A stretch of 64,000 nt of DNA from NCBI GenBank assembly GCA_028383925.1, contig JAOEWO010000001.1, positions 1-64,000 of the forward strand, in the 5' to 3' direction. Positions 50,504-54,456 of the stretch are shown here, piece after piece (position 1 is the stretch's first letter; the number at the start of each line of letters is the position of its first letter). The position numbers were made by a program, and so were the translations under genes. Below the pieces are notes generated by a model. It was given only the letters and a program-made list of their open reading frames with translations, was not told the DNA's origin and ran no database searches. Source of the DNA: Winogradskyella sp. (GTDB taxonomy: Bacteria; Bacteroidota; Bacteroidia; Flavobacteriales; Flavobacteriaceae).

Positions 50504-51283
50504 ATGATTCAAAATATATTTAAAGGACTTCAAGTTTATACAGGTGCTTATGCTTTAATTTCTAAATTGAAATTATGGAAGTACTTTATCATTCCTATGC
50601 TTATTAGTCTTGTTGTGTTTATTTTGATTTTTGTTTCTGCATATGGCCTTTCTGATAATCTGGGTGAATGGATTGCAGGTATTTGGGTGTGGGAATTTGG
50701 TAAGGCAACATTTACAGCAATTTCTACCTTTATTGGTGGTATTGTTATATTCACCATCGGAATCATTCTATACAAACATATTATTATGGCACTATCGTCG
50801 CCATTTATGAGTCCTGTTTCAGAAAAAATCGAAGCGTATTTTACTGGTAAACCCGTCAAAAACAGAATTAACACATCATTTACAAAACAATTACTAAGGG
50901 GTATTAAAATCAGTTTAAGAAACTTAACTCAAGAATTATTATTTACCATTCCTATTTTACTCCTAAAATTTATACCAGTCGTAAATATTTTTTCTACAGC
51001 ATTACTGTTTTTAGTTCAAGCGTATTATGCTGGTTTTGGCAATATGGACTATACCTTAGAACGTCATTTCACCTATAATGAAAGTGTTGCTTTTATTAGA
51101 AAAAATAGAGGCCTAGCCATAGGAAATGGTATTGGCTTTTTACTGTTACTACTTATTCCAATTGTAGGAGTAGTCTTAGTATTACCATTAAGCGTAACCT
51201 CTGCATCGGTTATTTCTGTTGATTTACTTTTTGATGATGATGGTACTATTGGTTTTGAACCTTTTGATAAACTAAACGCATAA
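50504..51283 (+). CDS. EI24 domain-containing membrane protein
   Basis: A 259-aa protein with four main hydrophobic regions (about 28-50, 70-95, 150-175, 205-235), resembling the EI24/CysZ family. CysZ members transport sulfate, but the Bacteroidota members are not characterised and this one lies among heme genes, so the function is open. It ends 3 nt before the GNAT gene and is likely co-transcribed with it. Confidence 0.8.
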   Translation: MIQNIFKGLQVYTGAYALISKLKLWKYFIIPMLISLVVFILIFVSAYGLSDNLGEWIAGIWVWEFGKATFTAISTFIGGIVIFTIGIILYKHIIMALSSPFMSPVSEKIEAYFTGKPVKNRINTSFTKQLLRGIKISLRNLTQELLFTIPILLLKFIPVVNIFSTALLFLVQAYYAGFGNMDYTLERHFTYNESVAFIRKNRGLAIGNGIGFLLLLLIPIVGVVLVLPLSVTSASVISVDLLFDDDGTIGFEPFDKLNA

Positions 51284-51286
51284 TTT

Positions 51287-51832
51287 ATGATAGCTCAGTT
51301 TAATGGCTTTGAAATAAACGCTGTTCATGAAGGTGATGCATGGAAACTTTGTAATTTCATGATTGCAAATGCAGACCGTTTAAAACGTTACTTTCCTAAA
51401 ACCTTAGAGCAGAACTTAAACCCAACGTTGTCGCAACTATTTGTTGAGAAAATGGTAAAACAGTTTGAACTAAAAGATGAATTTTTATTCACCCTAAAAC
51501 ATTCTGAAACGAGAGAACTCGCAGGTGTCATTTACATTAAAGAACTCGATTGGGATAAAAAACAAGGTGAATTTGCTTATTGTATTGGTTACACTTTTAA
51601 AGGACAGGGCGTAACTTCTAAAGCTATAAAAGAATTATCAAAATATGCTTTTAACGATTTAGAATTAGAAACACTTCAAATCATTGCCCACAAAGACAAT
51701 TTACCAAGTGTAAACGTTGCTCTAAATACTAAATTCAGATGGCAAAAAACATTAAAAAACGAATTTACACCAACAGGCGAACAACCCTTAGATATGGAGT
51801 TGTTTGAATTACACAGACCTAGCAGGTTTTAA
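51287..51832 (+). CDS. GNAT family N-acetyltransferase (RimJ/RimL-like)
   Basis: A 181-aa acetyltransferase of the ribosomal-protein N-acetyltransferase type (ELAGVIYIKELD, GEFAYCIGYTFKGQGVTSKAIKE with the acetyl-CoA loop, and the late ALNTKFRWQKTLKNEF). Codons 177-181 plus the stop (RPSRF) are part of a REP palindrome that begins at 51815, so the natural C-terminus has been replaced by repeat sequence. It starts 3 nt after the EI24 gene. Confidence 0.88.
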   Translation: MIAQFNGFEINAVHEGDAWKLCNFMIANADRLKRYFPKTLEQNLNPTLSQLFVEKMVKQFELKDEFLFTLKHSETRELAGVIYIKELDWDKKQGEFAYCIGYTFKGQGVTSKAIKELSKYAFNDLELETLQIIAHKDNLPSVNVALNTKFRWQKTLKNEFTPTGEQPLDMELFELHRPSRF

Positions 51833-51847
51833 AAACCTAGCAGGTCT
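51815..51847. repeat. REP-like palindrome, left end of the RAYT unit
   Basis: It contains two direct ACCTAGCAGGT units. The element overlaps the GNAT stop and is inverted relative to the copy at 52425-52456 (30 of 32 positions identical). Together they bracket the RAYT coding sequence. Confidence 0.92.
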
Positions 51848-51872
51848 ATATTTATTCGATTAAAATAATACA

Positions 51873-53372
51873 ATGGAAATACTAGAAAAAGGAAATTATT
51901 ACCACATTTACAATCGAGGAATTAACAGCGAATCTATTTTTAAGAATGATGAGAATATGTCCTATTTTCTGAAACTAGTCGAAAAACACCTCTATCCTAA
52001 AGCCAATATTTTAGCCTATTGTTTACTAAATAATCATTTTCATTTTGCAATTGAAGTTACATCCGAAACTAAAGAAATTTCACAAGCATTTTCTAACCTA
52101 TTCAATGCCTATACTAAAGCTTATAATAAGCTTAACTCAAGAACAGGAGCTTTACTCGAAAGGCCCTTCAAAAGGAAACAAATTAAGGATGAAAATTATT
52201 TAAAACAGCTCATTTTATATATTCATAAAAATCCTGAAAATCATAAAATTATCGCTGATTTTAAATCCTATGAATTTTCATCATTTCAGCATTTTTTCAA
52301 CAAAAACGAAACAATTATCAGTCAAAGAAAAACATATATTATTAACCTTTTTAACAACTTGGAAAATCTTTTGTTTGCACATGACAGTTCATCGAAAAAT
52401 TTAAATTTAGATTTTGATAATTTAAGACCTGCTAGGTTTGAAAAACCTGCTAGGTCATATAACCACAACATGAAAGACAAATTCTTCAAGTACATACACG
52501 AACTACAAGAGACAATAACTACTAAACTAGAGGCCGTTGACGGCAAAGCCAAATTCCAAGAAGATATTTGGAAACGACCAGAAGGTGGTGGTGGCAGAAC
52601 ACGCGTTATAGAAAATGGTGCTGTTTTTGAAAAAGGCGGAGTCAATATTTCTGGTGTACATGGCAAATTACCAGACAGCATGCAAAAATATTTTGGTGTA
52701 GAAGATGCCGATTTTTTTGCTTGTGGCTTAAGTCTCGTTTTACACCCAACAAATCCGATGGTACCAACCGTACATGCCAATTGGCGCTATTTTGAAATGT
52801 ATGATAAAGACGGTAATATCGTTGACCAGTGGTTTGGTGGTGGACAAGATTTAACACCTTATTATCTCTTTGATGACGATGCGATGCACTTTCACCAAAC
52901 TTGTAAAACGGCTTGCGATAAGCACCATCCAGAATTCTACCCAAAATATAAAGCACGTTGCGACGACTACTTTTATAATGCACACAGAAACGAAGGGCGT
53001 GGTATAGGAGGTTTATTTTTTGATTATTGTAAAGCATCAGATGAGATGACCATGCAAAACTGGTACGATTTTGTTACTGAAGTTGGTAACAGTTTCCTTG
53101 AAGCTTATGTGCCAATTGTTGAAAAACGCAAAGCTTTACCCTACACTGCAGACCAACGTAATTGGCAAGAAATAAGACGTGGACGTTATGTAGAATTTAA
53201 TTTAGTACATGACAAAGGCACTTTATTTGGACTGAAAACCAACGGAAGAATTGAAAGTATCCTTATGAGTTTACCTCCACATGTACAATGGGTTTATGAT
53301 CATAACCCAAAAGTTGGTAGTGAAGAAGAACGCTTAATTAAAATATTACAAAATCCCGTTGATTGGGTGTAA
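51873..53372 (+). CDS. RAYT transposase (Y1) fused in frame to HemF
   Basis: One ORF of 499 aa. Residues 1-184 are a REP-associated tyrosine transposase: the opening GNYYHIYNRG, the metal-binding HFH (55-57, in NNHFHF) and the catalytic Tyr116 in LYIHKNPENH are all intact. Residues 185-195 (RPARFEKPARS) are the translated right REP, and residues 200-499 are complete coproporphyrinogen III oxidase. The RAYT stop codon is absent. Whether a fusion protein is made, or whether HemF starts at its own ATG (52470), cannot be told from sequence. Confidence 0.85.
   Translation: MEILEKGNYYHIYNRGINSESIFKNDENMSYFLKLVEKHLYPKANILAYCLLNNHFHFAIEVTSETKEISQAFSNLFNAYTKAYNKLNSRTGALLERPFKRKQIKDENYLKQLILYIHKNPENHKIIADFKSYEFSSFQHFFNKNETIISQRKTYIINLFNNLENLLFAHDSSSKNLNLDFDNLRPARFEKPARSYNHNMKDKFFKYIHELQETITTKLEAVDGKAKFQEDIWKRPEGGGGRTRVIENGAVFEKGGVNISGVHGKLPDSMQKYFGVEDADFFACGLSLVLHPTNPMVPTVHANWRYFEMYDKDGNIVDQWFGGGQDLTPYYLFDDDAMHFHQTCKTACDKHHPEFYPKYKARCDDYFYNAHRNEGRGIGGLFFDYCKASDEMTMQNWYDFVTEVGNSFLEAYVPIVEKRKALPYTADQRNWQEIRRGRYVEFNLVHDKGTLFGLKTNGRIESILMSLPPHVQWVYDHNPKVGSEEERLIKILQNPVDWV
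52425..52456. repeat. REP-like palindrome, right end of the RAYT unit
   Basis: Two inverted-family units ACCTGCTAGGT flank a short spacer. It exactly covers codons 185-195 of the fused ORF, in frame and with no stop, and is the inverted partner of the repeat at 51815-51847. Confidence 0.92.
52433..52440 (+). promoter_or_regulatory. Possible REP-borne -7 box TAGGTTTG for hemF
   Basis: A match to TAnnTTTG inside the right REP, 29 nt before the hemF ATG, with TTTG at 52413-52416 at near-consensus spacing. The left REP copy lacks the match because it differs at the two central bases. Confidence 0.3.
52470..53372 (+). CDS. hemF: Coproporphyrinogen III oxidase, oxygen-dependent (HemF part)
   Basis: From its own ATG (MKDKFFKYIHELQE) this is a full 300-aa HemF, the same size as the well-known bacterial enzymes. 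It converts coproporphyrinogen III to protoporphyrinogen IX using O2. Family motifs are GGGGRTRVIENGAVFEKGGVN, HANWRYFEMYD, WFGGGQDLTPYY, the metal-site His region FHQTCKTACDKH and RRGRYVEFNLVHDKGT. It is in frame with the upstream RAYT. The next gene, hemB, follows 94 nt later. Confidence 0.93.
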   Translation: MKDKFFKYIHELQETITTKLEAVDGKAKFQEDIWKRPEGGGGRTRVIENGAVFEKGGVNISGVHGKLPDSMQKYFGVEDADFFACGLSLVLHPTNPMVPTVHANWRYFEMYDKDGNIVDQWFGGGQDLTPYYLFDDDAMHFHQTCKTACDKHHPEFYPKYKARCDDYFYNAHRNEGRGIGGLFFDYCKASDEMTMQNWYDFVTEVGNSFLEAYVPIVEKRKALPYTADQRNWQEIRRGRYVEFNLVHDKGTLFGLKTNGRIESILMSLPPHVQWVYDHNPKVGSEEERLIKILQNPVDWV

Positions 53373-53466: not shown

Positions 53467-54456
53467 ATGTTTCCAATTAGAAGAAATAGAAGACTTAGAA
53501 CCAACGAAGCTATTAGAAGTTTAGTACGAGAAACCAGCATCTCACCAAACGATTTTTTAGTACCACTTTTTATTGTTGAAGGCAAAGGTATAAAAGAAAA
53601 AATTGCATCGATGCCCAATTATTATCGTTTCAGTTTAGACAAGTTAAAAGCTGAAGTAAAATTACTTTGGAGCTTAGGTTTAAAGTCCGTTTTACTTTTT
53701 GTTAAGGTTGAAGATGCGCTAAAAGACAATATAGGTACAGAAGCTTTAAACCCAAACGGCTTAATGCAGCGTGCTATTAAAACGGTAAAAGACGTTTGTC
53801 CTGACATGTTGGTAATGACAGATGTGGCTTTAGATCCGTTTTCTGCTTATGGACACGATGGAATTATTGAAGGCGGAAGAATCATAAACGACGCTACTGT
53901 TGAAGTTTTAGCGGATATGAGCATTTCTCATGCCGAAGCTGGAGCCAATTTTGTAGCACCAAGTGATATGATGGATGGCCGAATTTTGGGTATTCGCGAG
54001 GCCTTAGATCAATCTAATTTTATTGATACTGGCATAATGAGTTACTCTGCAAAATATGCCTCTGCCTTTTATGGACCTTTTAGAGATGCTTTAGATTCTG
54101 CACCTGTAGATATGGGAGATGTCCCTAAAGACAAAAAAACGTATCAAATGGATTTTGCCAATAGAAACGAAGCCCTTAGAGAAACGGAAATGGATATTAA
54201 TGAAGGTGCAGATATCGTTATGGTAAAACCTGGTTTAGCTTATTTAGATATTGTTAGAGATATTAAAAACAATTTTGATGTGCCTATTGCTGTATATCAA
54301 GTTTCTGGAGAATACGCCATGTTGAAAGCTGCTGCAGAAAAAGGATGGCTAGACCACGATGCTGTAATGCTAGAACAAATCACTTCTATAAAGCGCGCAG
54401 GTGCTGATGTAATTGCGAGTTATTTTGCTAAAGATGTTGTTAAACTATTATTTTAA
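53467..54456 (+). CDS. hemB: Delta-aminolevulinic acid dehydratase (porphobilinogen synthase)
   Basis: Condenses two ALA to porphobilinogen. The 329-aa product has the two active-site lysines K196 (SYSAKYASAFYGPFR) and K254 (VMVKPGLAYL). The catalytic-zinc cysteines are missing: the site reads DVALDPFSAYGHDG (119-132), the form found in zinc-independent, Mg2+-activated enzymes. It is the last gene of the heme cluster, convergent with the MG2/plug protein. Confidence 0.95.
   Translation: MFPIRRNRRLRTNEAIRSLVRETSISPNDFLVPLFIVEGKGIKEKIASMPNYYRFSLDKLKAEVKLLWSLGLKSVLLFVKVEDALKDNIGTEALNPNGLMQRAIKTVKDVCPDMLVMTDVALDPFSAYGHDGIIEGGRIINDATVEVLADMSISHAEAGANFVAPSDMMDGRILGIREALDQSNFIDTGIMSYSAKYASAFYGPFRDALDSAPVDMGDVPKDKKTYQMDFANRNEALRETEMDINEGADIVMVKPGLAYLDIVRDIKNNFDVPIAVYQVSGEYAMLKAAAEKGWLDHDAVMLEQITSIKRAGADVIASYFAKDVVKLLF

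Follow-up and report, generated by a model that had tools for sequence, protein, structure and literature searches.

A REP-flanked RAYT transposase recurs in one reading frame with HemF in Flavobacteriaceae

In a stretch of 64,000 nt from Winogradskyella sp. (GCA_028383925.1, contig JAOEWO010000001.1, positions 1 to 64,000 of the forward strand; hereafter the window), a RAYT, a transposase of the Y1/HUH type flanked by repetitive extragenic palindromes (REPs), lies in one open reading frame (ORF) with HemF, the oxygen-dependent coproporphyrinogen oxidase. The nearest described class is REPtron subclass 2.6, the Bacteroidetes RAYTs (TnpA_REP) that correspond to Bertels group 5 in a survey of TnpA_Y1 proteins (PMC6006769). 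That survey gives NH[LIV]H and YIH[QN]NP as the motifs of this subclass. The window RAYT resembles its members in the Y1/HUH type, the NHxH and YIHxNP motifs, a length of about 180 aa, flanking palindromes, whose general form also occurs elsewhere in the genome, and a mostly Bacteroidetes distribution, which the phylum of the window fits. Its own motifs are NNHFHF and YIHKNP, in which the F of the HUH motif and the K of the tyrosine motif deviate from the subclass consensus. It differs further in being in frame with hemF, which is usually achieved through a translated REP. The survey states that unexpectedly long proteins were put aside as fusions or annotation errors, and the present analysis flags a protein class that was dropped in this way. 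No report of a RAYT-HemF protein was found in open-licence PMC papers, in agreement with the initial annotation of the window, which knew of none.

The persistence and the function of RAYTs are open questions, most often answered by a host benefit together with vertical inheritance. Single-copy RAYTs with REPINs have been inherited vertically for millions of years, according to the study that describes them (PMC8049555). The hemF-associated RAYTs are like these in being mostly single copy per genome and in the larger number of REPs where the RAYT is present; unlike them, they seem to have passed between species at a constant position. REPs inside genes are also on record (PMC3733652), and here the REP hairpin repeat would serve as a protein linker in three reading registers. 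The locus offers a natural case in which a transposase may owe its persistence to having become the N-terminus of a core enzyme, and in which its type seems to be swapped among species at a single position.

Inteins and in-frame homing endonucleases are mobile modules in the frame of a housekeeping protein, and their loss by frameshift harms the host gene. The RAYT module is alike in being in frame and presumably mobile, and differs in that it apparently stays as an N-terminal domain; the Pfam and NCBIfam match lists for the chimera contained no Hint, intein or other splicing domain. The engineered entanglement STALEMATE likewise links frames to guard a dispensable gene against loss (PMC12455656), but it is synthetic and uses overlapping frames, whereas RAYT-HemF is natural and tandem in one frame. 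A parallel of another kind is provided by the WHO elements of Torulaspora and Lachancea at the aldolase gene FBA1. Their description (PMC7282813) presents a diverse family on one end of a housekeeping gene, with serial replacement, older copies decaying alongside and discordant trees. WHO elements differ in placing an endonuclease-zinc finger gene downstream of FBA1 and replacing its 3' end by break repair; the hemF module is a bacterial Y1 transposase fused to the 5' end of hemF. As with WHO, the element family is confined to one gene (66 of the 67 rows of the clade described below, which were chosen by RAYT likeness). We consider it likely that a REP-RAYT lineage has become dedicated to the hemF start, where it would be translated as the N-terminal domain of HemF and be protected from loss. 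As judged from the genomes compared, a RAYT-HemF chimera is well supported and RAYT-driven homing only moderately so.

The RAYT-HemF reading frame in the window

The initial annotation had placed a RAYT with its HFH motif and Tyr116 between inverted REPs, exactly between a GNAT gene and hemF, and had read it without a stop through the right REP into a 300-aa HemF with its own ATG at 52470. This description was confirmed, and in a pair of close relatives, the fused locus L042 and the unfused L154 (L and G numbers are our handles for loci and genomes), the latter showed the site in its empty state. The REPs form inverted arms at 51816-51855 and 52417-52456, 40 nt long and 88% complementary. By alignment, the HFH motif occupies residues 55-57 and the catalytic tyrosine residue 116, and the HemF ATG is residue 200 of the chimera. 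The GNAT ORF terminates inside the left REP (...HRPSRF), its stop lying in the REP loop. The right REP loop, TTTGAAAAA, is stop-free in its reading register, whereas the left REP, as read by GNAT, has a stop.

The HemF part holds a full Coprogen_oxidas domain (PF01218; 5.3e-133, 442.7 bits against a cut-off of 31.8) and matches PRK05330 (4e-125, 416.7 bits against a cut-off of 297). The RAYT part matched the NCBIfam profile REP_Tyr_transpos (NF047646; E 1.4e-13) with 50.9 bits, under the curated cut-off of 80, and Pfam Y1_Tnp with only 15.3 bits, the cut-off being 23. The chimera structure was predicted with AlphaFold at moderate confidence, with a mean predicted local distance difference test score (pLDDT) of 74 and a predicted template modelling score of 0.51. 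In a fold search with this model, HemF structures came first (best 1.0e-22), and the solved complex of a RAYT with a REP hairpin (4er8) ranked 20 (E 1.2e-5, template modelling score by target 0.70). A phmmer search of the RAYT against PDB sequences gave no match, and the fold search alone recovered a RAYT. The pLDDT below 50 at residues 175-198 fits a flexible tether, as expected.

Table 1. Features of the locus and its surroundings (positions in the window)
Feature	Position	Strand	Basis and remarks
RAYT-HemF chimeric ORF	51873..53372	+	499 aa, stop-free; PF01218 and NF047646 matches
RAYT (Y1/HUH transposase) domain	51873..52421	+	NF047646 below cut-off, alignment, 4er8 fold match
Interdomain linker	52422..52469	+	pLDDT <50 over model residues 175-198
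HemF (oxygen-dependent coproporphyrinogen oxidase) domain, 300 aa	52470..53372	+	PF01218, PRK05330; own ATG present
Left REP palindrome, A type, GACCTAGCAGG...	about 51816-51846		contains GNAT ORF stop codon
Right REP palindrome	about 52426-52456		translated as residues 185-195, RPARFEKPARS
GNAT acetyltransferase ORF, upstream	51287..51832	+	final codons within left REP
EI24/CysZ-family membrane protein, context	50504..51283	+	profile match
ORF of 329 aa, context	53467..54456	+	ORF list; putative HemB

Recurrence of the in-frame fusion and loss of the HemF start codon

The initial annotation attributed the fusion to a transposition that put the unit at this spot. A single chance insertion in this genome is not supported: the same arrangement turned up in 26 of 68 Winogradskyella genomes and also outside the genus, and its RAYTs and REPs are of diverse types. 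HemF was present in all 68 genomes, the HemF frame reached at least 490 aa in 26, and in each of these 26 it contained a RAYT; 21 of the 23 matched Winogradskyella genomes had one RAYT match each. In an even draw of 397 genomes of the family, HemF was found in at least 332 and the RAYT search matched 67, with 17 matches in frame with HemF, in 16 genera. Named contigs added Algibacter, Flavivirga, Hanstruepera, Aestuariivivens, Polaribacter, Gelidibacter, Aequorivita, Mariniflexile, Luteirhabdus and one Maribacter metagenome-assembled genome. The joint frame occurs in many marine Flavobacteriaceae. An assembly or sequencing artefact could be imagined for the window genome, a draft of 101 contigs and 83% completeness. 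However, the architecture occurs at 56 distinct loci, the window's among them, including those of single-contig genomes (G011, G028, G184, G226, G306, G403) and named isolates. We regard the chance of an artefact as negligible, and the recurrence rules out both an artefact and a single accident.

After removal of 15 duplicates from 135 loci, 120 RAYT loci remained, a set from which the RAYT relic L055 was excluded and into which the fragment L057 was not entered. They comprise 56 fused, 13 adjacent (<300 nt) and 9 near hemF, with 42 elsewhere. Recurrence in 56 distinct loci excludes a chance frame. Among close RAYT-hemF neighbours 56 of 69 are in one open frame, in a sample that favours RAYTs resembling the fused ones. 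Since RAYTs with their own end also exist near hemF (the 13 within 300 nt), fusion represents one of several states in which RAYT and hemF occur as neighbours. In a quick tree of 118 of the 120 RAYT loci, all 56 fused RAYTs grouped in a single clade, which also takes in 10 adjacent RAYTs and one truncated by its contig end (67 rows, selected for likeness to fused RAYTs; SH-like approximate likelihood ratio test 95). All but one of these rows adjoin or are in frame with hemF, and the 67th reaches the contig end. Among the matches listed for a draw of 395 genomes of the order, no RAYT outside Flavobacteriaceae lay in a long frame. None of the 42 RAYTs located elsewhere was seen fused to a gene other than hemF (frames of 84-326 aa, the 326-aa frame hitting a contig end).

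Two further observations concern the range of such arrangements. Related RAYTs lie unfused 0.4-2.1 kb upstream of hemF in the Flavobacterium loci L198, L201, L202, L215 and L233, so RAYT and hemF may have been neighbours before they became fused. Weak RAYT matches within frames of 475-1029 aa (G331, G371, G112, G282) are possible other Y1 fusions.

The general form of the REPs is GACCTNNNAGGTTT...AAACCTNNNAGGTC. No 5' guide tetranucleotide of the GTAG type accompanies them, and such a guide is not required for subclass 2.6 because its structures are termed atypical in the survey (PMC6006769). Inverted flanking REPs were found at fused loci, with a full linker REP kept in some, not all. The linkers of the 56 fused loci span 16-105 codons; frame 0 is stop-free by the definition of fused, and the other two frames hold stops in 46/56 and 54/56. 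The 44 linker REPs that are complete fall into three reading registers (35, 7 and 2 cases), all of them stop-free (again by definition). Read in these registers, the 52 REPs on the upstream side of these RAYTs would contain stops in 22, 15 and 49 cases. Since upstream REPs would often carry stops, the linker REP loops differ from the upstream ones. Across fused pairs, the ratio of nonsynonymous to synonymous substitution rates (dN/dS) of the linker was loose, at 0.24-1.82 where defined. In Maribacter aquimaris (L200, 2501-3460), a RAYT frame reaches the contig end and its linker repeats REP-coded peptides twice (DLQGSGNLAG... DLQGVVDEGDLLVG...), an expansion in tandem within coding sequence; this frame probably belongs to a fusion that the contig end truncates. 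In L075 (G270), which groups with Arenibacter in the RAYT tree, REP arrays lie on both sides of an unfused RAYT, including the RAYT-hemF gap.

HemF codon 1 has been lost in many fused loci. It was ATG in 22, GTG in 2 and TTG in 1 of the 56, and in the other 31 it was ATC (15), ATA (5), GTC (2), GTT (2), GTA (1), TTT (2), ACC (2), CTC (1) or CTA (1). None of the 22 loci with a separate upstream RAYT had lost codon 1, all being ATG (Fisher p=1.2e-6). Among unfused Winogradskyella (41 of 42, with G460 left out), codon 1 was TTG in 19, ATG in 16 and neither in 6, so that 31/56 compares with 6/41 (p=4.7e-5); both tests ignore kinship. ATG, GTG and TTG were all absent over -20 to +40 codons in 22 of the 31 lost-codon loci, over -30 to +40 in 14 and over -60 to +40 in 2, and in 11 codon 1 was not even a rare initiator. 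Fused isolates without a HemF start codon include Hanstruepera flava NBU2984 (L184) and Winogradskyella litoriviva KMM6491 (L218); W. psychrotolerans is a fused one that retains it. These results suggest that the lost-start-codon species seem to make HemF only as part of a RAYT chimera.

The alternative is that HemF is made from internal starts, either its own ATG or an ATG, GTG or TTG in the linker, with the RAYT-HemF frame, translated or no more than transcribed, as a by-product. The ATG retained in 22 fused loci, window included, and the GTG or TTG in 3 more are consistent with this, as is the situation in group B, where an ATG lies at -21, within the RAYT tail, and about where the presumed ex-fusion L147 has its only nearby ATG. 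The six unfused Winogradskyella loci without codon 1 have an ATG 2, 5 or 26 codons upstream and would use such starts. Three of them look like ex-fusions whose start lies in the former linker: L171 and L174 retain a REP scar with an ATG at -5, and L147 has a RAYT relic with stops and an ATG at -26. However, internal starts would not explain the loss of codon 1 in 31 of 56 loci, 14 of them without any ATG, GTG or TTG from -30 to +40, and would require neither the 56 open frames among 69 nor the strong purifying selection on the RAYT described below. We consider internal starts as the general source of HemF unlikely.

Several observations nevertheless count against the chimera as the sole source of HemF. 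Besides the group B ATG and the six unfused Winogradskyella without codon 1, three of which (L164, L168, L172) lack a RAYT or REP scar, the HemF ATG is retained in 10 of the 11 members of the window's own RAYT group, the window included, and a separate 300-aa HemF may be made in these. Initiation at a rare start is conceivable for the 20 lost-codon loci that have ATC or ATA. The initial annotation had listed a fused protein and HemF from its own ATG among the outcomes; the former is strongly favoured where relatives have lost the HemF start, and the latter is possible in the window species, which might make both chimera and free HemF. In 19 of the 41 unfused species the hemF start is TTG (e.g. 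L154, L096, L145), often a few bases past the GNAT stop. The close spacing of hemF start and GNAT stop in many empty alleles suggests translational coupling.

In the proposed mechanism, a REP-flanked RAYT lineage would specialise on one site, the hemF start in Flavobacteriaceae. A module landing between GNAT and hemF would have to pass ribosomes on to HemF, and an in-frame junction would achieve that. The module sits flush with HemF codon 1, and its right REP usually lies in the frame as a presumably flexible linker, which would give one polypeptide. With translation of HemF then beginning at the RAYT, the HemF start codon would be free to decay, and after such decay in many species the chimera would be the sole apparent source of HemF. 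Loss of the RAYT by a stop or frameshift would remove HemF too, which would render the transposase pseudo-essential. We infer that the protein is made and remains joined, and pseudo-essentiality would be the reason why the fusion persists. Winogradskyella holds empty, fused-with-ATG, fused-without-ATG and ex-fused alleles, which allow direct tests.

Module replacement at the hemF start

Between GNAT and hemF, the module is the only thing that sets the fused locus L042 apart from the empty locus L154: their flanks are 93.5% and 94.3% identical, and the GNAT-hemF distance is about 645 nt versus 11 nt. Three RAYT types occur among the 26 fused Winogradskyella genomes (A 10, B 4, C 12). For the same 26 rows, RAYT type changes 2 times on the RAYT tree and 11 times on the HemF DNA tree, on which shuffled types gave a mean of 11.3 changes and were as low as observed in 108 of 200 shuffles. 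A single old fusion with purely vertical inheritance is ruled out by this difference. The fused label itself changes 7 times on the RAYT tree (118 rows) and 24 times on the HemF tree (140 rows), figures that are not comparable as the row sets differ. All of these are quick trees with many weak forks, which weakens the case for exchange.

Pairwise comparisons point in the same direction. L035 and L047 share 95.4% nucleotide identity in HemF and 51.2% amino acid identity in the RAYT. Conversely, the module of L049 and L050, from the left half-REP to HemF codon 1, is 94-100% identical in 100-nt windows, whereas identity is 81-93% in HemF and mostly 74-95% over the 2.5 kb upstream; synonymous divergence (dS) is 0.034 for the RAYT and 1.00 for HemF. 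In five pairs with near-identical modules, identity drops at HemF codon 1 or within the first 100 nt, slightly so in L041/L042. Remnants of other types are found to the left of the present modules. A B-type REP precedes the C modules of L048 and L050, an A-type half-REP precedes the C modules of L049, L050, L051, L053 and L093, and in L045 the B module is preceded by a fragment of a dead RAYT that follows a C-type half-REP but is nearest in protein to A-type RAYTs. Together, these comparisons indicate that one type of RAYT module supplants another at the hemF start and that left-REP scars stay behind.

Modules could also be exchanged when related species recombine by ordinary homology across the GNAT-hemF region, with the RAYT uninvolved. 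The flanks are homologous, and L049/L050 is the only pair with a sharp left edge; in L044/L099, L051/L053, L051/L093 and L041/L042 identity extends well upstream and the left edge is unclear. Yet breaks within hemF should scatter under plain recombination, whereas identity drops at HemF codon 1 or in the first 100 nt in all five pairs, and the change at the left half-REP of L049/L050 is sharp. We give recombination slightly less than an even chance. A tentative reading, to which we lend about the same weight, is that the clade consists of site-specific homing elements of a single-strand HUH/Y1 transposase that would recognise the start of hemF, insert flush with its codon 1, bring their own in-frame junction and make the heme enzyme of the host their C-terminal domain. 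Here the RAYT itself would drive site-specific replacement, start-codon loss would lock the host to the element, and the resident module would be displaced by rivals that carry other REP types. In L039 and L071 the usual hemF start, ATGAAAGAT or ATGAAAGAC, lies flush with the left REP, as if a module had entered at hemF codon 3 and the start had been rebuilt on its right; this was noticed post hoc in 2 of 56 loci and is not evidence.

RAYT conservation and REP copies elsewhere

Among 20 fused pairs, all 14 with a RAYT dS of at least 0.3 had a RAYT dN/dS of 0.05-0.20, and HemF gave 0.00-0.13 over the 20 (one with saturated dS). An HxH motif is present in 55 of 56 fused RAYTs (L070 has QFH) and the tyrosine motif YxHxN in all 56; in an alignment of 30, H57 and Y116 are invariant and H55 is kept in 29. 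The RAYT is under purifying selection and is probably kept as a catalyst. The six pairs with RAYT dS <0.1 fit less well, with dN/dS of 0.15-0.66 or undefined, on few changes.

The number of REPs outside the locus had a median of 13.5 in the 26 fused genomes versus 0 in 41 of the 42 unfused ones (p=5e-10), and the RAYT may be active and maintain these REPs. Tempering this, the association covers two independent pairs on supported branches only and kinship may explain it, and A-type REPs, with one mismatch allowed, are confined to the locus in the window genome, although palindromes of the general form occur elsewhere in it (14 strict ones in all). A match between RAYT type and REP type was tried and dropped: the A-type share, at p=3.3e-4, went to p=0.11 without the locus copies (10 versus 11 genomes; four B-type genomes were unused and one C-type genome had no remaining copies), which also goes against the proposal.

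Alternatively, the RAYT may be fully domesticated, so that the host would use it as a regulatory arm through which HemF binds DNA or RNA, without transposition. Strong purifying selection, the occupation of the same neighbourhood by unfused relatives and the lack of an outside A-type REP in the window genome agree with such a role. The retention of the His motif in 55 and the Tyr motif in 56 of 56 RAYTs argues against it, as do the REP copies that are commoner in genomes with the fusion. The scatter of RAYT types over the HemF tree, with 42 of 68 genomes unfused, suits a mobile element better. We hold full domestication to be improbable. The 42 unfused genomes also bear on the proposed dedication to hemF, as they do without the fusion.

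HemN, which is oxygen-sensitive, scored above its cut-off in 57 of the 68 Winogradskyella genomes, the window's included, making HemF essential only conditionally. Because HemN is present in most genomes, protection of the RAYT via HemF would be conditional as well, and it would be strongest under oxygen. The fused genomes G012 and G043 have only weaker HemN-profile matches, which we take for HemW.

The window genome contains two more Y1 transposase matches (G000:C47:7124-7456 and G000:C9:31918-32151), one with an internal TAA, and neither was retrieved with the hemF-type RAYT protein as query. Downstream of the chimera, the ORF at 53467..54456 was recognised by eye as what is presumably HemB.

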